Assembly: GCA_021779915.1 (NCBI GenBank) | Contig: JAJXZR010000047.1 | Location: 1-40,652 of the forward strand | Source of the DNA: a bacterium | GTDB lineage: Bacteria > Patescibacteriota > Minisyncoccia > CAIUEV01 | Direction: 5' to 3' | Length of the DNA stretch: 40,652 nucleotides | Shown: one piece after another, positions 2,848-31,066 of the stretch | Numbering within the stretch: position 1 is the stretch's first letter | Layout: each line of letters begins with the position of its first letter | Position numbers and translations under genes: made by a program | The notes under the pieces: generated by a model | What the model was told of the DNA's origin: nothing | Seen by the model: the letters and a program-made list of their open reading frames with translations, nothing else | Database searches by the model: none

Positions 2848-4998
2848 TTAAAATATCATCGTTAAATTTACTCTTCCCATCTTGTCGATTTCTTTAACTT
2901 TAACTCTCACTTCGTCTCCTTCATTTAAGTATTTGCGAATATCCTCCACTCTTTCCTTGTCAGTAATTTGGGAAATATGAACCATTCCGTCTTTATTGGG
3001 AGTGAGTGAAATAAAAGCTCCGAAATCCATGATTTTAACAACTTTCCCAGTGTAAATTTCGCCAGCCTCAACTTCCTTGGTGATGCTTTTGATAATCTCA
3101 ATGGCTCGATTAAGTCCAGTTTCGTTGGCCGAAGCAACGCTGACAATTCCGGTTTGTTCAATATCGATGGAAGCACCTGTTTCATCAATGATTTCATTAA
3201 TTACTTTTCCTCCCGGTCCAATAACATCTCGAATTTTGTCTACCGGAATTTGAATAGTGGCAACCCGTGGAGCGTAAGGAGAAAGATTTTCTCGGTTTTT
3301 GGGGATTACTTTCAACATTTCTTCTTGAATCTTCGTTCTTGCTTTTGAAGATTTTTCAAAAGCTTCCTCGATCACTTCATAAGGTATACCTTTAAGTTTG
3401 ATATCCATTTGGATGGCGGTGACTCCTTCTTTTGTGCCGGCAATCTTAAAGTCCATGAAACCGGAAAAATCTTCCGTAGCACAGAGGTCGGTGAGGACGG
3501 TGTATTTCTCAGTTTCTTTATCGTACATAAGCCCCATAGCAATCCCAGTTACTGGTCTTTTAATTGGAACTCCGGCGTCCATTAAAGCTAGAGTGCTTCC
3601 ACAGACGCTCGCCATAGAAGTCGATCCGTCGCTAGACATAATTTCAGTCTGCATCATTATGGTGTAAGGAAATATTTCTTTTTCCGGCATTACTGGTTCA
3701 AGGGCTTTTTCTCCGAGGGCTCCGTGACCTACTTCTCTTCTTCCTGGACCTCGAAGTGGACGGCATTCTCCGACTGAAAAAGGAGGGAAGCTGTAGTAGT
3801 GGATGTAACTTTTTTTAGTGTCGACTTCGTCAATCATTCCATCGAGAATGAGCGAATCTCCGGGAGCCCCCAGTGTTGTGAGGGTTAACCCTTGGGTCCA
3901 TCCGCGAGCAAAAATAGATGATCCATGAGTGCGTGGAAGAACCCCCACTTCAATTTGAAGGGGTCTAATCTCTTCAATCGCTCTTTTATCAACCCTCTTT
4001 CCTTCTTTGTTAAAAAGATTCCTTACTTCTTCCTTGAAAATTTTATCAATGGCTTCACTAAAGATTGAAGTGTTGCCTTCCGGCTTTTCAGTGTGGGTAG
4101 AGTTGTACTCGACCATCAAATTTTCAATGTTCTCTTTTTTGAGTGTCAATGTTTCAGTATCAAACCATTTTTTATCGTTGAATGTCCCAACGATTTCTTT
4201 GATTTTTTCCCCCAGAACTTTTTTAACTAATTCTAAAATTTCAGGATCAATCGTGTGCAGAGGCACTTCCCTCTTTTCTTTTCCAGCTTTGGCTTGAAAT
4301 TCTTCCACAAGGGCGATTACTTTTTTGGATTCCTCCTGGGCAAGTTTGATGGCTTCTTTTACTTTTTCTTCAGGGACTTCTTTAGCGCCCGCCTCTATCA
4401 TGGCAATCTTTCCTTCTTTGGTGGTCGCTACAGTCAGGTTTAGCTTGTTATTTCCATTTTCAGTGAGTTTTGGATTGATTACAAGTTTTTCATCAATAAG
4501 ACCGATTTTAACTGCTCCCAGAGTGGTTTCAAAGGGAATATCTGAGATTGCCAGGGCAGCACTTCCAGCGACTAGTGCTAAGAAATCAGGATCACTCTCC
4601 TTGTCAAAACTGAGGGCAGTGATTATGATTTGAACTTCGTTACGCATTCCATCAGGAAAAAGCGGTCTAATGCTGCGGTCAAGCACTCTTCCCGTGAGAA
4701 CGGAATCATCAGAAGGCTTGCCCTTTCTCTTCATAAAACGGCTTCCACGAACTTTTCCGGCAGCATAGTGGTTTTCTTCATAGTCAACCGTTAGAGGAAA
4801 AAAATCCAATCCCTCTCTTGCTTCTTGGCTCATGACTGCCGTTCCTAAAAAGACAGAATCTCCATAAGTGACCAGCACAGACCCATTGGCTTGGTTAGCC
4901 AGTCTTCCAGTTTCAAGAGTCAATTCTCTCCCCCCAATTTCCGCTGAAACTCTAATAGGGTTCACAAAAGACCCGAGATTTTTTTCTTTGTTCTCCAT
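2848..4998 (-). CDS. pnp: Polyribonucleotide nucleotidyltransferase (PNPase)
   Basis: Two RNase PH domains, FFPLTVDYEE, GSRFMKRKGKPSD, KH (GPGGKVINEI) and C-terminal S1 domain. Confidence 0.97.
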   Translation of the reverse strand: MENKEKNLGSFVNPIRVSAEIGGRELTLETGRLANQANGSVLVTYGDSVFLGTAVMSQEAREGLDFFPLTVDYEENHYAAGKVRGSRFMKRKGKPSDDSVLTGRVLDRSIRPLFPDGMRNEVQIIITALSFDKESDPDFLALVAGSAALAISDIPFETTLGAVKIGLIDEKLVINPKLTENGNNKLNLTVATTKEGKIAMIEAGAKEVPEEKVKEAIKLAQEESKKVIALVEEFQAKAGKEKREVPLHTIDPEILELVKKVLGEKIKEIVGTFNDKKWFDTETLTLKKENIENLMVEYNSTHTEKPEGNTSIFSEAIDKIFKEEVRNLFNKEGKRVDKRAIEEIRPLQIEVGVLPRTHGSSIFARGWTQGLTLTTLGAPGDSLILDGMIDEVDTKKSYIHYYSFPPFSVGECRPLRGPGRREVGHGALGEKALEPVMPEKEIFPYTIMMQTEIMSSDGSTSMASVCGSTLALMDAGVPIKRPVTGIAMGLMYDKETEKYTVLTDLCATEDFSGFMDFKIAGTKEGVTAIQMDIKLKGIPYEVIEEAFEKSSKARTKIQEEMLKVIPKNRENLSPYAPRVATIQIPVDKIRDVIGPGGKVINEIIDETGASIDIEQTGIVSVASANETGLNRAIEIIKSITKEVEAGEIYTGKVVKIMDFGAFISLTPNKDGMVHISQITDKERVEDIRKYLNEGDEVRVKVKEIDKMGRVNLTMIF

Positions 4999-5828: not shown

Positions 5829-8039
5829 GTGGATAATAATACAAAAACTGATCAGACAGGCTCAGAAAAGGACAAGGCTCTCAATTTGGAGGATGTTTCG
5901 ATTAATACTATGAAGAGCGATATTGCCAAAGCGGAGGGAAAAGATGGTGGCTGGTTTGATTTTCTTTCTAAACACAAGGAAAACAAAACTGGTCAGCCGT
6001 TATCTAAAAAGGAGGATGAAGAAAAGAAGGAGATTGTTTTTGAAACCAAGCCAGATAATTTGCCCATTTCAGACCCGGCTAATTCAGAAACAAAAATAGT
6101 TGAAGAAGATGCGGGGGTTAAAGAAATTGAAAACTCCGATGTTACGTTAAAAGATGAATTGCAAGGCAATATCAATGAGCTGTCCAAAGTTTTAACTCAA
6201 AACAAAACAATCGAAGATACAAATCTCGATAATCCATTGCCAACTGGCAGCTTAGAAGAAAAAATAAAAGCGGTAGAAGGAATCAATTCAGAAAACCCTT
6301 CCGAAGAAACTGAGAATGACGATAGCCAAAATTCAACAGAAGATTCTTTAAACAATGAACTTGAGGCTTTTAAAAAGGAAATAGAGAAAGAAAACTCGGA
6401 TGAAAAACCTTCTGAGATTATTCCAGAAAATCTGCCTGTAGTCGAAAACGCAACTATTCCATCTCTATCCTCATTTTTTCCTTCTAAAAATGCGGAAGAA
6501 AAACCAACGGTCTTGGAAGCTGAAAATCAAAAAGAGTCAACAAACAAATTAGCGGAAGCTTTAAATAAAAATATTAACGAAAACTATTTAGAAAAAAGTG
6601 AAGCCGAATTAGTTGATGAAAAAGGAGAAAAAAAAGAAAAATCAATTATAGAATTTAAAGGAAACCTTGAACCTGACAAAAAAGAATCTTCGAATCAAGA
6701 ATCCGCTCCTCTAGATTCCTTTCTCAAGGGGGGCAGTATTGGAAATGACATGGAGGAACCAGAAAAAAAACAGGAAAAATCGGATGAAAGTCCCCTACCT
6801 CTTGAACTCAAAAAATTTACTTTGGAGGATGAAGACAAAGCTGAAAAGGAACAAAAAGTCAATACGATCAGCCCTTTTAGGGGTGATGGATTGGCGGGAA
6901 CCGTCGTTAATGCCAGTGAAGAAAATCCATTTTCAGCGCACCTTGATCCTCGAGAAAGAGAAGGGTCTTCTCTTCTTCAAAAAGTTGAATCTGCAATCAA
7001 CTACTCTGCTTCTCCTGATTTTGCCAAGGAAAGAGAAGCTGGGGAAAAGTTAACTCAAGAAATAAAAGAAGGGACGAAAGTTGTTGACCTAAAAGGGAAA
7101 AGTGTTGTGGCAGACAGTTCTTCCAATAAAAAGAAATATATTTTTATAGGTGTTGGAGTTTTTGGAATAATATTTGTTTTTATTGTCTTGTTCCTGATTT
7201 TTGGTGCGGGGAAAAGCTCTAATTCTCCGATCGCTGACAATAAAAATTTAAATACGAATGCAAACGGAAATATTAATACAAACGCCAATAAAGTGGTAAA
7301 ACCGATACCAATTAATGATAATGTTGATACAACACCAAAAATTGCCATTCAAAAAGTAATATTAAATGTTGAAAGCAAGGTTGTAAATAGTCCGCAGGAG
7401 CTGACAAAAGTAGTTGAGAGTTACAAGAGCGGAACAGCTGTATCGAAACTGACACAAATCGTTTTTGCCAAGTCAAATGGAAGTTCTCTGTCCTTGGCCG
7501 ATCTTGATTTGGACTTAGGAATAAAAATTCCAATCAAGATAATCCCTAACCCGGAAACCGTGCCAGCCCTGTTTTTTGTAGATTATTTCAATAAAGGCAA
7601 TGTTTTTGGATTGATTATCCCAACTGAAAATCGGGATGAAACTTTGTTTTCCGCGATGAGTGATTGGGAGCCGACAATGGTCAGTGATTTGAAGCCACTT
7701 TGGGACGGATATACAATCGACAATCAAAATGGTTATTTTGCCAACAGTAAACTCTTTACTAATTCAAGATACGCTCTTATCGACAAAAAAACGGGAATGT
7801 CACTTGATTACGTGATAAATGGAGGAAATATTTTCATTACTTTCGGGCGGTACAGCATGCAGGCTCTTAATAAGGAATTCATCGGAGTAAACAAAACGGT
7901 TAACAGTGGTATAAAATGGGAGGCTTCATCAGGAAGTGATTCGACGAGCTCAAGTGATGGTGCCAATATTGGGAGCAACTCTAATTTGAACGGTAGTGAC
8001 GACGTTAATAAAAATGCCAATACGAATAATGGAAATTAA
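5829..8039 (+). CDS. Large acidic single-TM protein of unknown function
   Basis: GTG start; long E/K/N/S-rich N-terminal region, TM segment YIFIGVGVFGIIFVFIVLFLIFG, N-rich linker, globular C-terminal domain. Confidence 0.7.
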   Translation: MDNNTKTDQTGSEKDKALNLEDVSINTMKSDIAKAEGKDGGWFDFLSKHKENKTGQPLSKKEDEEKKEIVFETKPDNLPISDPANSETKIVEEDAGVKEIENSDVTLKDELQGNINELSKVLTQNKTIEDTNLDNPLPTGSLEEKIKAVEGINSENPSEETENDDSQNSTEDSLNNELEAFKKEIEKENSDEKPSEIIPENLPVVENATIPSLSSFFPSKNAEEKPTVLEAENQKESTNKLAEALNKNINENYLEKSEAELVDEKGEKKEKSIIEFKGNLEPDKKESSNQESAPLDSFLKGGSIGNDMEEPEKKQEKSDESPLPLELKKFTLEDEDKAEKEQKVNTISPFRGDGLAGTVVNASEENPFSAHLDPREREGSSLLQKVESAINYSASPDFAKEREAGEKLTQEIKEGTKVVDLKGKSVVADSSSNKKKYIFIGVGVFGIIFVFIVLFLIFGAGKSSNSPIADNKNLNTNANGNINTNANKVVKPIPINDNVDTTPKIAIQKVILNVESKVVNSPQELTKVVESYKSGTAVSKLTQIVFAKSNGSSLSLADLDLDLGIKIPIKIIPNPETVPALFFVDYFNKGNVFGLIIPTENRDETLFSAMSDWEPTMVSDLKPLWDGYTIDNQNGYFANSKLFTNSRYALIDKKTGMSLDYVINGGNIFITFGRYSMQALNKEFIGVNKTVNSGIKWEASSGSDSTSSSDGANIGSNSNLNGSDDVNKNANTNNGN

Positions 8040-19899: not shown

Positions 19900-22326
19900 G
19901 TGCCAAATTATCCTCAAACAATCAAATTTATCTTTCCCCGCCTTATTCTTATATTTTCTCTCGTCTTAATTACCCGAGCGGTTTTTCTTTTGCCGGGAAT
20001 GATAAATAAGAACTGTCCTCAAGAAAATATTTGTAATCTTGCTGGAGAAAAAGTGGGCGTTTGGGGGAAAGTAGTTTCCATTCAAAGCGAAAGGATGGAA
20101 AAAACCTTGCTGGAAATTGAGACGACTGAAATATCCGAACGAGATATCCAAAAAAGCAAAATAATGGTCGTTCTTCCATATGATAGTTATGATTATTTTT
20201 ATGGAGATACTATTTTTGTTTCAGGCAAAATAAAAATTCCTGACGAGCTGGAAGAAAGCAATTTTTCTTACCCGCTCTATCTTAAAGGAAAAGGTATTTA
20301 TTCTTTACTGACCTATCCGGAAGTTAAAAAACCGGAATTGGGAGAAAAATCTTTAAAACTTGATCTGTACGAAAAAATTTATCGGGAAATTCTTTTTGTG
20401 CGAGAAAAATGTAGAAATTTCATTCAATCCTCACTTAAAGAACCAGATGGATCGATTGTTAGCGCATTTATCATTGGGGATCAAGGAACTATTCCGGAGA
20501 ACATCCGAAATGATTTCGGCAGAATTGGGATTATCCACATTCTTTCTGTCAGTGGTGCGCATGTTACCCTTTTGATTTTTATTCTGGCTTGGATTTCCAA
20601 TCAACTATTTTCCAGAAAAATATTTAAATTGATTCTTACGGTGGTTTTTGTGTCTTTTTATTTGGTTCTTTCGGGGTCTCCCAGTTGTGCCTTACGTTCT
20701 GGCATAATGGGAATATTCGCCTTTTTAGCTATTTATCAGAACCGGTTGGCCAATATAAAAACGATGTTGTGGCTTTCCTGTGCTATTTTGCTTTGGCAAA
20801 ATCCTCTTTTGCTTGTTTCCGACATTGGATTTGAATTGTCTTTTTTAGCGGTTTTTGGGATGACGTATATCTACTTGATTTTTGACAAGCTACTTCTTTG
20901 GGGGAAAGAAGGATTTTTTTGGAAGGTAATTAAAATTGTTGTTCTCTCGATATCGGTGGAAATAGCGGTTTTACCCCTAGTTTTCTATTATTTTGGTTTT
21001 ATTTCTTTGATTTCGCCACTGGCTAACATTTTATTACTCCCCTTATTTTCTTTTCTCATCCCACTAGGCTTTTTAATTGTCATAGTTAAATCCTTGGAAT
21101 GTTTTTTTATTTTTTACGGTGTTATGGAACTTCCCCTCACAATTTTGAGGGAAACAATCGCTCTTAGTACTCATTTTTTAATGTTTTTAGTGGATAAAAG
21201 TGCTTCGATGCTAGCTAAAATACCTCTCGGGTCTTTTGACGGGAAAATCAAGATTGGCTTCATAGTGCTTTATTACAGCTGTTTGTTCCTTATGGTTATT
21301 GTCTATAATTTAGTATACAAAAATCGAATTTTGCTTAAGAAGCTTGACTATTTTTGTACTAAGGAATTTTTGGGCGAAGAAACTGAAAATATTCTAAAAA
21401 AAGAAAAAATTCCTGGATTTTGGCAAAAAGTGGGGGGACGGATTCGTTTACAAAAAAAGATTTTTTCGCAAGCGATTGATTCAAAAGAGGCAAAAATAAA
21501 GGTGTTTTGGCTGATAGTGGCTTGTTTTCTGTGGTTTTTTTCTTTGGTCTATCTTTATTCTTCTAGTCGTCCAGCCAGCGTTGTCGCTCTTGATGTCGGT
21601 CAAGGAGACGCCATTCTTTTTAATTTTCCGGCTTATCACTTTCAGATGCTCGTAGACGGCGGACCGGGGAGAAGGGTTTTGCCACCCCTTGGAGAATTTA
21701 TGCCTTTTTACGATGACAAAATTGAAATGGTATTTTTGTCTCACGAGCATCAAGACCACGTCGAAGGACTTCTCGATGTTTTAGAGCGTTATCAAGTTTC
21801 CTCATTTTTTCTCCCTAAAACTCCCAGTCAAAATTCGAGCGATCTTTACAAGAAATTATGGGAAAAGATTAGAGAAAAAAATATTCCAATTTTAAAAAAG
21901 AAGCAGGGAGATGAAATCAACCTTCAGTTTAATGGCAAGGTGTGTAAAATCAGGTTTTTATCCCCTTTTTACGATTATGGTTTAGAAAAATTAAACAATA
22001 TCAACAATGAAAGCATGGTTCTTGAAATCGATTTTTCAAAAAAGATACTTCTTACTGGAGACGCAGAACAGGGGCTGATGAAGGCGCTACTTTATAAGAG
22101 TAAAGATAGTCTTAAGGCGGATATTCTCAAAGTTTCCCATCATGGCAGTCGAATTTCCGCTTATAACAGTTTTTTGGAGGCAGTGAAACCAAAAACCGCC
22201 CTTATCAGTGTCGGAAAAGACAATCAATTTGGTCATCCATCGAGCTTGACAGTCTCAAGACTGGTTGATTTGGGAGCGAAAGTGAGAAGGACGGATTTAG
22301 AGGGAAGCATAGAAACAAATTTCTAA
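19900..22326 (+). CDS. comEC: ComEC/Rec2 family DNA uptake channel with metallo-hydrolase domain
   Basis: Competence domain (HILSVSGAHVTLL), multi-TM region, ALDVGQGDAILF, LSHEHQDHVEGL, LKVSHHGSR. Confidence 0.93.
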   Translation: MPNYPQTIKFIFPRLILIFSLVLITRAVFLLPGMINKNCPQENICNLAGEKVGVWGKVVSIQSERMEKTLLEIETTEISERDIQKSKIMVVLPYDSYDYFYGDTIFVSGKIKIPDELEESNFSYPLYLKGKGIYSLLTYPEVKKPELGEKSLKLDLYEKIYREILFVREKCRNFIQSSLKEPDGSIVSAFIIGDQGTIPENIRNDFGRIGIIHILSVSGAHVTLLIFILAWISNQLFSRKIFKLILTVVFVSFYLVLSGSPSCALRSGIMGIFAFLAIYQNRLANIKTMLWLSCAILLWQNPLLLVSDIGFELSFLAVFGMTYIYLIFDKLLLWGKEGFFWKVIKIVVLSISVEIAVLPLVFYYFGFISLISPLANILLLPLFSFLIPLGFLIVIVKSLECFFIFYGVMELPLTILRETIALSTHFLMFLVDKSASMLAKIPLGSFDGKIKIGFIVLYYSCLFLMVIVYNLVYKNRILLKKLDYFCTKEFLGEETENILKKEKIPGFWQKVGGRIRLQKKIFSQAIDSKEAKIKVFWLIVACFLWFFSLVYLYSSSRPASVVALDVGQGDAILFNFPAYHFQMLVDGGPGRRVLPPLGEFMPFYDDKIEMVFLSHEHQDHVEGLLDVLERYQVSSFFLPKTPSQNSSDLYKKLWEKIREKNIPILKKKQGDEINLQFNGKVCKIRFLSPFYDYGLEKLNNINNESMVLEIDFSKKILLTGDAEQGLMKALLYKSKDSLKADILKVSHHGSRISAYNSFLEAVKPKTALISVGKDNQFGHPSSLTVSRLVDLGAKVRRTDLEGSIETNF

Positions 22327-23912: not shown

Positions 23913-23929
23913 TAAGCCTAGGAGCGTTG

Positions 23930-24068
23930 TGTCATCCCGGGCTTGAACCGGGATCTAGTTAGACTAACAAAATGTTATTTTAACGTGTATCATTAAGAAA
24001 CTGAGTAAATTAACATTTTGTTAGTCGAATGCTACTCTCCTGGATCCCGGGTCAAGCCCGAGATGACA
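23930..24068. repeat. REPIN-like element 3
   Basis: TGTCATCCCGGGCTTGAACCGGGATCTAG ... CTGGATCCCGGGTCAAGCCCGAGATGACA. Confidence 0.93.
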
Positions 24069-24150
24069 CGTAGTTTCTAATTTTACTTTTTTTAGATCAT
24101 TATTAAATTACAAAATTAAAAATTGTTTGAAAATTGTAAATTAATTCTGA

Positions 24151-24796: not shown

Positions 24797-26113
24797 CTAG
24801 TTTCCCCACTTTATCTTCTCTTTAACCTTAATTTTAACTTCCCCACAATCAATCTTATCTCCCTTGGAAGTGGTGATTGAAGCATTTATCGAAGCGTCTC
24901 CGCCCAGTGGGGCAAGAGCTTTAAGAACTTGATTGTCATTAGAAATAGGATTTAAATTTGTTTGATTCCAGTTGGTTTTGGTACTACCTAAACATTTTCC
25001 GGTTATTCGTGCTACTACTGTATCGCCAGAGGTAATACTCAAATTTTGACTAAAAGATCCGTTGGAACCAAATTCGCGGGCTTCTACTTGGCAAGTGGCC
25101 GTGTCGTCTACTAAAACTTTCGTCATTGAGTTACAAGCAATGTCGTCCTCATCGTTTATGGTAGAAATGATGAGGGTTGGCGGTTTGTCTCCGGAACATT
25201 CGTGAGAAACAGAGTTGTTCGTTTGAGGTGCTTCCCCATCGCATTGCCAGGTGTAATCTTTGATGTCGGCGAAATCCGCCGAAGCTTTGTAAACAACTTT
25301 GTCATTTGGCTGACAAATCGTTTTTTCTTTAGCGATTGAATCGACAAAATAAATATCACAAGTTTTAGATGCACTCTGTTTTGCTTGACTCGTGCTTTGT
25401 TGGCTGGTTGTATCAACAGTATTGCTAGTGTTGTCTAGTTGTTGAGGAGAAACTTGTTGAGTGAAAGCGTCAGGAAGGAAGCTGACTTCCGAAAAATCCA
25501 AAAAGCCAAGTCCCGGATTGTCAGAAATGGAAGTTGAAACTACACCTGAACTCCAAGCGAAACCGTGAAATTTGCCATCTTGATCAGAACAGACAAAATA
25601 ATTTTCATCCTTTGTCTTGGTGTCTCCTGAACAAGGGTAGTTCGAGGGGTCGGCTGGCGATCTGAAATGAACCCAAACATCCGGATATTTCCCCGGCGCC
25701 CCAATTTCCATCTTCGCCCAACCGGAAATAAAACCTTCCATTTGATTAATTGAACCTAACTTTGCCGTCCATTTGGCCGGATAGCAATCCCCCGTCCCAA
25801 AACAGTCATCACTAGGAGCTCCTTGGTCAAACCGAAGATAACCAGTCCTCATCCCGTTGATGCTAGAAATAGGATTAATCTGGCTTTTCAAAACAAAATC
25901 ATTCTTAGCCCCGCCAATCTCCCCACTCCCGACAATCTTTCCGTCCTCCAAATTCAACCCATCCATCCTAATAGCCAGCGCCGAAGGATTATTCATTGCG
26001 ATTCCGGAACCCGAATCATTCCCAATCCAAACAAATCCGGAAAAAGGGGATGAGGCGCTTGCGATTAGGGGGGAGAAGAGGAATAAAAGTGAGAGATAGA
26101 ATGATTTTTTCAT
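24797..26113 (-). CDS. Secreted protein of unknown function, paralogue of the product of 8069..9436
   Basis: Signal peptide; GYLRFDQGAP, GFISGWAKMEIG, VWVHFRSP, YFVCSDQDGKFHGFAWSSG, NPGLGFLDFS; ends KIKWGN. Confidence 0.8.
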   Translation of the reverse strand: MKKSFYLSLLFLFSPLIASASSPFSGFVWIGNDSGSGIAMNNPSALAIRMDGLNLEDGKIVGSGEIGGAKNDFVLKSQINPISSINGMRTGYLRFDQGAPSDDCFGTGDCYPAKWTAKLGSINQMEGFISGWAKMEIGAPGKYPDVWVHFRSPADPSNYPCSGDTKTKDENYFVCSDQDGKFHGFAWSSGVVSTSISDNPGLGFLDFSEVSFLPDAFTQQVSPQQLDNTSNTVDTTSQQSTSQAKQSASKTCDIYFVDSIAKEKTICQPNDKVVYKASADFADIKDYTWQCDGEAPQTNNSVSHECSGDKPPTLIISTINDEDDIACNSMTKVLVDDTATCQVEAREFGSNGSFSQNLSITSGDTVVARITGKCLGSTKTNWNQTNLNPISNDNQVLKALAPLGGDASINASITTSKGDKIDCGEVKIKVKEKIKWGN

Positions 26114-26231
26114 GGGTTTTGTTTTTTTGATAGCTATAAAATCATAGAGTTTCCTTTCCAGATAAAACAGTAGTATTTTGGGGTAGATAATAACGATTAT
26201 TTGTTATTATCTATCTCTATTTTATTCTAAC

Positions 26232-27416
26232 TCATATTTCCGAAGCGGAAATACAATAATCAATCTGATTAAATTCCTGGGAAATCAAATATTTTTCTTT
26301 AATACCAATCGAATCGCTTATTTTCGAAAGTTTCTTGTAGTCAACCCTCGACCCCTTCTGCTTGACTTCAAAAGCGATTTTTTTATTAAGGATAAAATCA
26401 ATTTCCCCGCCGGATCTTTTTTGATAGTAATTTATTTGACCATATTTTTTTAAACCAAGAAAAACTGCGTTTTCCAAAATAGAGCCGGAACTGACCTGGG
26501 CAAAATTGTTGATTATTCCGGTATCGCAAAGATAAATTTTTCTTTTGCCACTAATTTCCCTGTCGATATTTCTGGAAAAAGGCTTCAGTAAATAAAGAAA
26601 ATAAGTTTTCTCCAAAAAAGAAAGAAAGGCATAGATGGTTTGCCTGGAAACCCCCAGCTCACTTGAGATTTTAGTGATTTCAATTCCCGAACCAACTCTT
26701 TGCATCAAAAGCAAGATAAAATCTCGCAGGACGTTTATTTCTCTGAAATCTCCCAAAAATCGAATGTCTTTTTCGAAGTAAGACTGAAAAATGTCGTTTA
26801 GTCTTAGTGTTTTGGTTTCCTGATCTTGAGCTAGTACCACTCCCGGAAACCCTCCAAAACGTAAATACTCCTCGTAGTATTTTTGTTTTTTTTCGTATTC
26901 AATTAAGCTCTTTTTTTTTGCCATTTCGGCAAAATCTTGGTGGAAATCGGGATTTTTAAAATTTTTAAAAATTAAAAACTCCTCGAAATCAAGCGGGAAA
27001 ATTTCAAAAATAAATTTTCGGCCGGACAAGCTTTCAGGGAAAAGATTTTTCAAATAAAAACTGCTTGACCCTGTCAAAAAAAACTTGATGTCGTAATGGT
27101 CATAAAGATACTTTATGGCTTTGACTGCGAAAGGAGCCGCTTGAATTTCGTCCAAAAAAACATACATCTTTTCCGATTTTTTCAATCCCAGAGAAACAAA
27201 ATTGTGGATTATATTGTCGAAGTCCTTCTCTTCAAAAACCTTCTGATTAATAGGGTTTTCCAAATCCAAAAAAATTTTATTAGCACTTTTTATATTATCT
27301 AATAAAATCTGGCACAAAGTAGTCTTTCCGACTCTCCGCATACCCGTGATAACGACTATTTCTTTGTCTTTCAAGCGAGCTTTTATCGAAGAAAGTATCT
27401 TTCTTTGGTAGAACAT
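26232..27416 (-). CDS. AAA_14 / DUF4143 family ATPase
   Basis: VVITGMRRVGKTTL, MYVFLDEIQAA, FFLTGSSS, SGRKFIFEIFPLDFEEFL, C-terminal ENAVFLGLKKYG...GGEIDFILN. Confidence 0.9.
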   Translation of the reverse strand: MFYQRKILSSIKARLKDKEIVVITGMRRVGKTTLCQILLDNIKSANKIFLDLENPINQKVFEEKDFDNIIHNFVSLGLKKSEKMYVFLDEIQAAPFAVKAIKYLYDHYDIKFFLTGSSSFYLKNLFPESLSGRKFIFEIFPLDFEEFLIFKNFKNPDFHQDFAEMAKKKSLIEYEKKQKYYEEYLRFGGFPGVVLAQDQETKTLRLNDIFQSYFEKDIRFLGDFREINVLRDFILLLMQRVGSGIEITKISSELGVSRQTIYAFLSFLEKTYFLYLLKPFSRNIDREISGKRKIYLCDTGIINNFAQVSSGSILENAVFLGLKKYGQINYYQKRSGGEIDFILNKKIAFEVKQKGSRVDYKKLSKISDSIGIKEKYLISQEFNQIDYCISASEI

Positions 27417-27473
27417 TGAAGTAAAAATTTATTAATCACAAAACTGTCCAGTAGTAATTAACATATTTTATAC

Positions 27474-27502
27474 AATTTTGTCAATTATCACTTGACAAAA
27501 TT
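27474..27502. promoter_or_regulatory. Operator-like palindrome upstream of the AAA_14 ATPase gene
   Basis: AATTTTGTCAA-TTATCAC-TTGACAAAATT, perfect 11-bp arms, 58 bp upstream of the start codon. Confidence 0.6.
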
Positions 27503-27508
27503 CCAACC

Positions 27509-27612
27509 TTTTCCAATCCAAACAAACCCGGAAAAAGGGGATGTGGCATGGGAAATTAGGGGGGATAAGAGGAATAAAAGTGCGAGACAGAATGATTTTT
27601 TCATGGGTTTTT
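27509..27612 (-). pseudogene. Truncated copy of the 24797..26113 gene 5' end
   Basis: Reverse strand encodes MKKSFCLALLFLLSPLISHATSPFSGFVWIGKGWNFVK* versus MKKSFYLSLLFLFSPLIASASSPFSGFVWIGND. Confidence 0.85.
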
Positions 27613-27635
27613 TGTTTTGGTTTTTGACGGAGCTA

Positions 27636-28028
27636 CTAAATCAAAGAAAGAACAATTTTTCTAATATTTTTTGCCATTTTATAGGCTGTTTCTGCCTCTT
27701 TTAGGGAAAATTGGGGAACATCTCCAGGGTAACGGGTCTCTGTATAGTAGTCGCTAAGCAGGATTGCTTCCTCTTCGATTTTAGAAAAATTTTTGTCGTA
27801 TTTTTTGCATTCTAGAACCAGTTTATCCAACTGATGAGTTTTTACGGGAGAGACTTTTTGATAGGCTAAGTATCCTTTTAAATACTTCTCCCCCATCTGC
27901 TCGGCGTGAAGGCAAATTTGGTTCGGTGGACCGTTTTCTTTGATAGCAATTAATATTATCTGCTCGTCTTCCAAAGCATATTTTTCCCACTCCTCGAACC
28001 TTTTTAGGGCTTTTTCTTTTTCACTCAT
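27636..28028 (-). CDS. HEPN domain protein (toxin-like component of HEPN/MNT pair)
   Basis: 130 aa, QICLHAEQMGEKYLKGYL...THQLDKLV...DYYTETRYPGD typical of HEPN. Confidence 0.82.
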   Translation of the reverse strand: MSEKEKALKRFEEWEKYALEDEQIILIAIKENGPPNQICLHAEQMGEKYLKGYLAYQKVSPVKTHQLDKLVLECKKYDKNFSKIEEEAILLSDYYTETRYPGDVPQFSLKEAETAYKMAKNIRKIVLSLI

Positions 28029-28039
28029 AATTTGTTTGA

Positions 28040-28357
28040 TTAAGAAGTGTAGATAATTTTACCTTTTTCTAAAATTTTCTCTATGAAAGGATCTCCTATT
28101 TCATTTCTTTCTTTCACCTCTTTGGGCGTATAGACAAGAATATCGGTTGCAATTTCACTTCCAAAAATCATTTTACGAACCTCTCTGGCTCTGTCAATTC
28201 TGCGCTTCCTGCTTTTTTTAATGATGAATAAATCCAAATCACTGTCCTTTTCCGGTTTTCCCCACGCATAAGAACCGAAAATAATAATTTTTTCCGGCTT
28301 AAAACTTTTAACAATCTGATTTTTGATTTTGAGGACATCAGGTTTTAAGTTTTCCAT
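28040..28357 (-). CDS. MNT-type nucleotidyltransferase (antitoxin-like)
   Basis: IIIFGSYAWGKPEKDSDLDLFII: GSxAxGxxxxxSDxDL motif, adjacent to HEPN gene. Confidence 0.88.
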   Translation of the reverse strand: MENLKPDVLKIKNQIVKSFKPEKIIIFGSYAWGKPEKDSDLDLFIIKKSRKRRIDRAREVRKMIFGSEIATDILVYTPKEVKERNEIGDPFIEKILEKGKIIYTS

Positions 28358-28403
28358 GATGGGAATTTATCATTTTAAAAGGAAAATGACAATAAAAACA
28401 GAC

Positions 28404-28465
28404 AAATTTTGTCAATCCACACTTGATATTCTTTGTGCAATTTTGTCAAGTAGCAATTGTCAAAT
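28404..28465. promoter_or_regulatory. Operator-like sites upstream of MNT gene
   Basis: AATTTTGTCAATCCACACTTGA and AATTTTGTCAAGTAGCAATTGTCAAA, about 48-80 bp upstream of MNT start; first matches the site at 27474. Confidence 0.55.
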
Positions 28466-28480
28466 AATGCTAATTGTTCT

Positions 28481-28582
28481 GAGTCCAAATGAATCCGGAA
28501 AAAGGCGATGAGGCGTGGGAAATCAGGGGGGGAGAGGAGGAATAAAAGTGAGAGACAGAATGATTTTTTCATGGGTTTTTTG
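28481..28582 (-). pseudogene. Second truncated, frameshifted copy of the 24797..26113 gene 5' end
   Basis: MKKSFCLSLLFLLSPP then +1 frameshift in a C-run; frame-corrected continuation is LISHASSPFSGFIWT. Confidence 0.85.
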
Positions 28583-28647
28583 TCTTGATAAAACATTGCT
28601 TTAACTTTTAACCATGTCAGATTTAATAATTTTCTTCAGATATTTCC

Positions 28648-29310
28648 CTAATAAGATACTGTATCAAGTGCCTTTTGATATGAGTAGTAAGGAAGTAAAA
28701 GGGAGCCAGATTTATTAACATCAACATATACTTTACAAACACCCTGGCAATATTCGGAAGGAGATATGAATGTTAAAAGAGCTGGACCACTCATAATAGT
28801 AGATGTAACATAACCAGCTCTCCCTGATAAATAAGGATATGGTTCAGTAAATTTTGAAACTTTTCTATTAAAAATCCCATTCTTATAACAAGAACAGTCG
28901 TTATTTAAAGAAATCTGAATACCACTTGGATCATTAGAAACTAAATCATAACTCCCAATCTCTCCCTGACTATTCCACACCCACTTCGCATCCACCCCTC
29001 CATTGTTCCCTCCCCCACCGCACGCGCTCCAATCTTGCCCTGCTTGGGGTGGGCAGCAGGATTGGGTTCCGTCGGGTTTTTTGATGCAGAATTTGGGGGA
29101 TTCGACGCCGACGTCGAAGCTGAAGGGGTTTGTGATGACGCGGATCCAGTTGTTGAGATTGAGCCAGCCTTTCTTTTCTTGGCCGTCAGAGCTGGTATTG
29201 AGAACCGCCGGGATTTCTTCGCCCTGTTTGGGCTCGACCCAGGCGGAGGCTTTGAGGGCGATGATTGTGGTGATAGAAACGAGGATAGCGAGGAGGAGTT
29301 TGGTTTTCAT
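28648..29310 (-). CDS. Secreted AWVEP-type surface protein
   Basis: Signal peptide followed by AWVEPKQGEEIPAVLNTSSDGQEKKGWL, matching the N-terminus of the product of 10121..11152. Confidence 0.65.
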   Translation of the reverse strand: MKTKLLLAILVSITTIIALKASAWVEPKQGEEIPAVLNTSSDGQEKKGWLNLNNWIRVITNPFSFDVGVESPKFCIKKPDGTQSCCPPQAGQDWSACGGGGNNGGVDAKWVWNSQGEIGSYDLVSNDPSGIQISLNNDCSCYKNGIFNRKVSKFTEPYPYLSGRAGYVTSTIMSGPALLTFISPSEYCQGVCKVYVDVNKSGSLLLPYYSYQKALDTVSY

Positions 29311-29410
29311 AGGTGTTTGATGATAATTTTTAAATTTTTATAATTTTGTAATTTTGTAAATAAATTCTAATTTCTCAATTTTTAAACATTAGGGATCCTG
29401 TTGTTTTATG

Positions 29411-29566
29411 TGTCATCCCGGGCTTGACCCGGGATCCAGTAAATACGTATATAATTAGACTGATAGATCATTCTTTTATTCGATTTTCTTGAATGTTCAC
29501 ACTAAAAGGATACTCTCTCTTTTTGATCCCATCCTCCTGGATCCCGGCTCGGAGGCCGGGATGACA
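29411..29566. repeat. REPIN-like element 4
   Basis: TGTCATCCCGGGCTTGACCCGGGATCCAG ... CTGGATCCCGGCTCGGAGGCCGGGATGACA. Confidence 0.93.
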
Positions 29567-30879: not shown

Positions 30880-30927
30880 TAATTAATGGATAGAATTTTT
30901 AAAATCTAAGTTTCATCTATAACCAAG

Positions 30928-31066
30928 TGTCATCCCGGGCTTGACCCGGGATCCAGTTAGACTAATTGAATATTATTTTAATGTGTATCGTTAAAAAACT
31001 AAACAAAATAACATTTTACTAGACTAATATTGCCCTCCTGGATCCCGGGTCAAGCCCGGGATGACA
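30928..31066. repeat. REPIN-like element 5
   Basis: TGTCATCCCGGGCTTGACCCGGGATCCAG ... CTGGATCCCGGGTCAAGCCCGGGATGACA; spacer matches element 3. Confidence 0.95.

Follow-up and report, generated by a model that had tools for sequence, protein, structure and literature searches.

Organisation of the locus

The 40,652-nucleotide contig JAJXZR010000047.1 (assembly GCA_021779915.1), hereafter the window, is contig C8 of a 1.12 Mb bacterial source genome in 48 contigs (G000). It carries on its minus strand a secreted-protein gene whose 5' end is present three times, with an AAA_14/DUF4143 ATPase gene lying between copies 1 and 2 and an MNT-HEPN gene pair between copies 2 and 3. The features of the locus, including those shared with the related genome G003, are as follows.

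24797..26113, minus strand: target gene, a secreted protein of 438 aa, intact (open reading frame; full-length homologue in G003, 48% identical)
26014..26127, minus strand: repeat copy 1, leader, start codon and signal peptide of the intact gene (alignment and genome search)
26232..27416, minus strand: cassette 1, AAA_14/DUF4143 ATPase, PADLOC defence candidate PDC-S01 (PF13173 E 5e-32, PF13635 E 3e-27)
27417..27502, minus strand: promoter-like leader of cassette 1 (direct reading; similarity to G003 begins at 27498)
27505..27618, minus strand: repeat copy 2, truncated 5' end of the secreted gene (alignment and genome search)
27636..28028, minus strand: cassette 2, HEPN-domain protein (PF05168 E 3e-20)
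28040..28357, minus strand: cassette 2, MNT nucleotidyltransferase (PF18765/PF01909; PDC-S09/PDC-M05A matches)
28423..28464, minus strand: second copy of the promoter-like stretch (76% identical to 27458-27499)
28473..28586, minus strand: repeat copy 3, frameshifted 5' end of the secreted gene (alignment and genome search)
28648..29310, minus strand: upstream neighbour, a second secreted protein (its orthologue adjoins the fragment in G003, 55% identity over 169 aa)

The preliminary description of this DNA had proposed a triplicated 5' segment of about 100 bp, and a search of the whole source genome with the repeat bears this out by returning exactly three copies, at 100%, 88% (E 1.1e-32) and 86% (E 1.9e-28) identity, all of them at this locus. 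As had also been described, copy 2 is truncated, reading MKKSFCLALLFLLSPLISHATSPFSGFVWIGKGWNFVK* with a stop after 38 codons, and copy 3 is frameshifted, by one additional C within a C-run; the Pfam matches likewise agree with the cargo first assigned to the two intervals. Read along the minus strand, the order is fragment 3, MNT-HEPN, fragment 2, ATPase, and fragment 1 with the intact secreted gene, so that direct repeats of 114-156 bp bracket the inserted genes and the target is represented by one intact gene and two 5' fragments. Alignment of the copies gives 114 bp common to all three, while copies 2 and 3 are alike over about 156 bp (27467-27619 versus 28432-28587, 81%). This longer unit takes in a promoter-like stretch of about 40 bp, containing TTGACAAAATTG, that precedes the cassette, and since both copies hold it the second duplication spans about 156 bp. 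Beyond the first 33-57 codons or so, no remnant of the secreted-gene body was found in any fragment of the window or of G003.

The two cassettes and the search for mobility features

The ATPase of cassette 1 contains both domains of the PADLOC family PDC-S01, for which no mode of movement is given there, and aligns with the PDC-S01 profiles along almost its entire sequence (E 3e-69). Its Walker motifs are conserved, and so is an E-I-D...E-V-K pattern that looks like a putative PD-(D/E)XK nuclease motif. The predicted structure has a mean pLDDT of 90; a fold search with this model returned only AAA+/STAND proteins at low TM-score, a loose likeness, and the ATPase profile found nothing among the sequences of solved structures. 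Relatives of AAA_14 are known from archaea, Bacteroidetes, Nitrospirae and further groups, a distribution that shows wide transfer. Within the leader of the cassette, at 27474-27502, lies a perfect palindrome, AATTTTGTCAA-N7-TTGACAAAATT.

Cassette 2 resembles the type VII HEPN/MNT toxin-antitoxin systems in that HEPN and MNT are encoded by adjacent genes and in that the MNT protein has the GSX10DXD motif, present as GSYAWGKPEKDSDLD. It departs from them in that the MNT protein scores 29.8 bits, below the NCBIfam MntA cut-off of 60, and in that the RX4-6H RNase motif is absent from the HEPN protein as read from its sequence, for which reason an active RNase toxin is not assumed.

Only the ATPase or the MNT-HEPN genes are found in the cassettes, without transposase or integrase, and the comparison of cassette ends for terminal inverted repeats was no better than shuffles in 11 of the 12 cassettes examined across loci; the MNT-HEPN cassette gave p 0.04, uncorrected, which we take as chance. 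In these respects the cassettes are unlike a DDE transposon or insertion sequence (IS) element. They are also unlike integron gene cassettes, as the repeats are unrelated from one locus to the next, and unlike a tRNA-targeted integrative element, as the window has no tRNA; nor was there any Rfam match or known RNA element near the locus. A candidate ComEC-like gene, recognised by eye at 19900-22326, makes DNA uptake plausible.

The locus in a sister genus

Among 55 related genomes searched, the secreted-protein family is present in four, the source itself included. One of these, G003, belongs to another genus of the same family (PNPase 66-67% identical to the source) and has at the corresponding locus the orthologue of the 28648 gene, a 57-codon fragment of the secreted gene, a promoter-like stretch, the ATPase and the intact secreted gene, in that order; the locus is split across two contigs, both of which end inside the ATPase gene. 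No MNT-HEPN pair lies between the fragment and the ATPase, so that G003 represents the stage preceding the second insertion and provides an empty site for MNT-HEPN. The promoter common to copies 2 and 3 of the window fits this order, in which the second insertion duplicated fragment and promoter together. A block of high similarity between the two genomes (85% at the DNA level) runs from the promoter (window 27498) to the stop codon of the ATPase (26239), outside which they are much less alike.

Further comparison concerned the independence of the insertions in the two genera. Over codons 1-22 the three copies of the window agree at 85-91%, and over codons 23-57 the two copies of G003 agree at 89%, while between the genomes these codon stretches are only 59-72% alike. 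Because likeness within genomes exceeds likeness between them, each duplication seems to postdate the divergence of the target genes. The junction of fragment and cassette also differs, lying near codon 33 in G000 and near codon 57 in G003. Protein identity between the genera is 93-96% for the ATPase and 66-67% for PNPase, and the pooled fourfold-site identity of the ATPase is about 0.51 versus about 0.32 for PNPase and three local genes; the ATPase is under strong purifying selection. A very recent transfer of the ATPase, which we had considered, is weakened by this synonymous-site divergence. Taken together, the comparison favours a separate arrival of related cassettes in the two genera.

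Recurrence of the bracketed arrangement

The arrangement was sought elsewhere by asking, for loci from GTDB genomes together with class-level loci, whether a gene is flanked by direct repeats within 1.5 kb. Over Patescibacteria and other phyla, AAA_14/DUF4143 genes were bracketed in 12 of 84 cases and other open reading frames in 16 of 392 (Fisher p 0.001); dnaA was never bracketed (0 of 28), and MNT genes were in 3 of 26 cases, one of the three weak. The 16 bracketed other frames are themselves mostly toxin-antitoxin genes (AbiEii and PIN, plus Phd/RelE and MNT-HEPN by eye). Repeats around AAA_14 genes at these loci measure 42-275 bp, and where a repeat can be placed it is usually the 5' or 3' end of an adjoining gene that stays intact. 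Among the clean cases, one AAA_14 gene lies ahead of a type IV pilin gene, with a repeat of 78 bp (94%) that covers the leader and the first 14 codons of the latter; others were found at the 5' end of an oxidoreductase-like gene (138 bp), at the 3' end of clpB (139 bp, 99%), after a gene with a duplicated 3' end (77 bp) and at a gene boundary (275 bp). One MNT-HEPN pair follows an intact neuB-like gene and is accompanied by a 195 bp copy of its 3' end (92%). The bracket at locus L206 is weak (69 bp, 77%) and may be a match between pilin paralogues.

A bracket scan of the source genome covered about 95% of it and was confined to low-copy repeats; dispersed intergenic repeats of the TGTCATCCCGGGCTTGACCCGGGATCC type imitate brackets there and were removed by a copy-number filter, some of them still being included in one set of control counts. 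Two further loci carry stacked copies. At one (L145, G000:C15) four copies of an epimerase 3' end (741-851, 2195-2311, 3680-3794 and 6140-6248) bracket AAA_14/DUF4143, SLFN/AlbA_2 and AbiEi/AbiEii genes. At the other (L196, G000:C41) four copies of a histidine-kinase-like 3' end (723-871, 1426-1526, 4127-4252 and 6206-6335) enclose a DUF4325 gene, a NUDIX-like block and an APH-like gene, cargo that is not obviously toxin-antitoxin. With these two arrays, the window is one of three stacked loci in the source genome. Brackets also enclose a zeta toxin and its small partner gene (L151, G000:C22, 11582-12987), where the 182 bp repeat corresponds to codons 1-61 of an ABC transporter ATPase whose intact gene lies downstream, and a gene for a bAvd/23S-intervening-type four-helix protein at the 3' end of a 734-aa gene (L188, G000:C28, 11662-12749; 185 bp, 90%); an HsdR gene with Bro-N is also bracketed by low-copy repeats. 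Between loci the repeats are unrelated in sequence, about 40 to 280 bp long and derived from various genes, of which they copy either the 5' or the 3' end; the cassettes have no ends in common.

How the locus may have arisen

The explanation that we consider quite likely is that the 5' end of a single secreted-protein gene received two small defence or toxin-antitoxin cassettes in succession, a long stretch of the target being duplicated each time. The duplications and their order, the sharp borders of the cassettes, the absence of MNT-HEPN from the sister genus and the repeated occurrence of the pattern with similar cargo are all shown by the sequence itself. First, the AAA_14/DUF4143 gene would have entered with its promoter, duplicating the leader and signal-peptide segment and leaving the intact secreted gene downstream and a dead 5' fragment upstream; MNT-HEPN would then have entered between this fragment and the promoter of the ATPase, with duplication of some 150 bp of fragment plus promoter. 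Each event would have left a spare copy of the first 100-150 bases or so of the gene, the gene itself remaining whole. This corresponds to the serial insertion with regeneration of the 5' end that had been put forward initially, and the lineage-specific duplications, the empty site in G003 and the many independent loci of like structure support it well.

As to the mechanism, including the proposal that a cassette encodes no mobility function of its own, we infer that incoming DNA, probably acquired by transformation, would integrate by one homologous and one illegitimate join, or alternatively that a circle would integrate through one crossover within a short segment of shared sequence. In a compact genome, selection would preserve chiefly the insertions that spare both neighbours, and the presence of a duplicated gene end beside the cassette would be accounted for in this way.

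Several points weigh against this explanation. An uninterrupted orthologue of the 24797 gene, that is, an empty site for the ATPase, was not found among the related genomes, in which the nearest members of its family are paralogue-like and out of synteny. No bracket is detectable around 72 of the 84 AAA_14 genes, as would be expected for old insertions and equally for other modes of entry. Gene conversion between the repeats could imitate lineage-specific duplications, and the hitting of one target gene in two genera would be a coincidence that random integration alone does not explain.

A possible, though rather doubtful, alternative is that the ATPase was inserted once before the genera split, that gene conversion homogenised the repeats within each genome and that only MNT-HEPN came later. 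Gene, side and promoter are indeed the same in the two genera, and the synonymous sites of the ATPase are diverged enough (fourfold identity about 0.5) that its arrival need not be recent; however, this divergence is still below that of neighbouring and housekeeping genes, the fragment-cassette junctions differ, and conversion would need to act on repeats of about 100 bp beside dead fragments. That the AAA_14/DUF4143 protein, with its STAND-like ATPase, winged helix and nuclease-like C terminus, might itself make a widely staggered cut and so generate the long duplications, acting as a single-gene mobile defence element across bacteria and archaea and also aiding the insertion of toxin-antitoxin cassettes, strikes us as improbable.

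An integron-like system of site-specific acquisition, with the leader and signal-peptide segment as attachment site, had been raised from the start, and three copies in direct orientation with different cargo in between, together with the four-copy arrays at two further loci, could suggest it. It is nonetheless very unlikely, as the 100-bp segment occurs nowhere else in the source genome, the repeats at other loci are unrelated to it, of differing lengths and derived from either gene end, and the cassettes have neither an integrase gene nor terminal inverted repeats or other shared ends. We also regard as most unlikely a functional role of the repeated leader, recruited again for each cassette as a regulatory leader or for translational coupling: each fragment does lie just upstream of a cassette with promoter-like sequence, but copy 3 carries a frameshift and copy 2 an early stop, and elsewhere it is the 3' end of a gene that has been duplicated, downstream of the cassette. 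That the whole secreted gene was duplicated in tandem and the gene bodies then decayed and were replaced had likewise been suggested, and paralogues of the secreted protein are common in the source genome and the family; this is scarcely credible given that no fragment retains a trace of the gene body, while brackets of the same structure occur around these cargo types in unrelated target genes, the repeats thereby tracking the type of cargo and not the target. Altogether, two successive insertions with long target duplication remain our preferred explanation.

Other features of the window

The first 95 or so residues of the upstream secreted protein (28648-29310) are far better conserved with G003 than the remainder, a pattern that suggests modular exchange of the C-terminal part. 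A dispersed intergenic repeat, GTGTCATCCCGGGCTTGACCCGGGATCC, frequent in the source genome, occurs in direct and inverted orientation at 23929-24075, 29407-29440 and 30921-30957, and the stretch 2030-2785 encodes a protein with many near-identical repeats of about 16 residues of the DERFEVQDNRLTKEL type.

Relation to known systems and significance

Insertion with long target duplication was reported by Nobusato et al. (2000, Gene 259:99), and passages of PMC1643837 and PMC3874152 describe it for restriction-modification genes of Helicobacter pylori, with repeats in the order of 100 bp that are variable and unlinked to mobile elements. The present locus is alike in being a gene complex without a known mobile element, with long and variable target repeats and addictive or defence cargo. 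It differs in its cargo, an AAA_14/DUF4143 defence candidate and MNT-HEPN in place of restriction-modification genes, in its stacked insertions, which give three to four copies, and in its probably Patescibacteria-like host. In an E. coli experiment, a circle with a short target segment integrated by single crossover to give partial lacZ duplications of 109-950 bp (PMC3240628), and a related process has been proposed for the stacking of gene arrays in Vibrio (PMC5361080). The combination of one homologous and one illegitimate join is that of homology-facilitated illegitimate recombination, which here is deduced from genome structure alone. The locus is thus an example of a known, little-noticed insertion pattern, the new elements being the cargo families and the stacking of insertions.

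Long-target-duplication insertion is hereby extended beyond restriction-modification genes to an ATPase family that is large and has hardly been studied, as well as to modules of the MNT-HEPN, AbiE, zeta and PIN types, and the stacked cases record the order of insertion. A direct repeat of a neighbour-gene end around a small cassette provides a simple marker for recently acquired defence genes that have no mobility gene, and the movement of such genes becomes testable by strain-level comparison and transformation.

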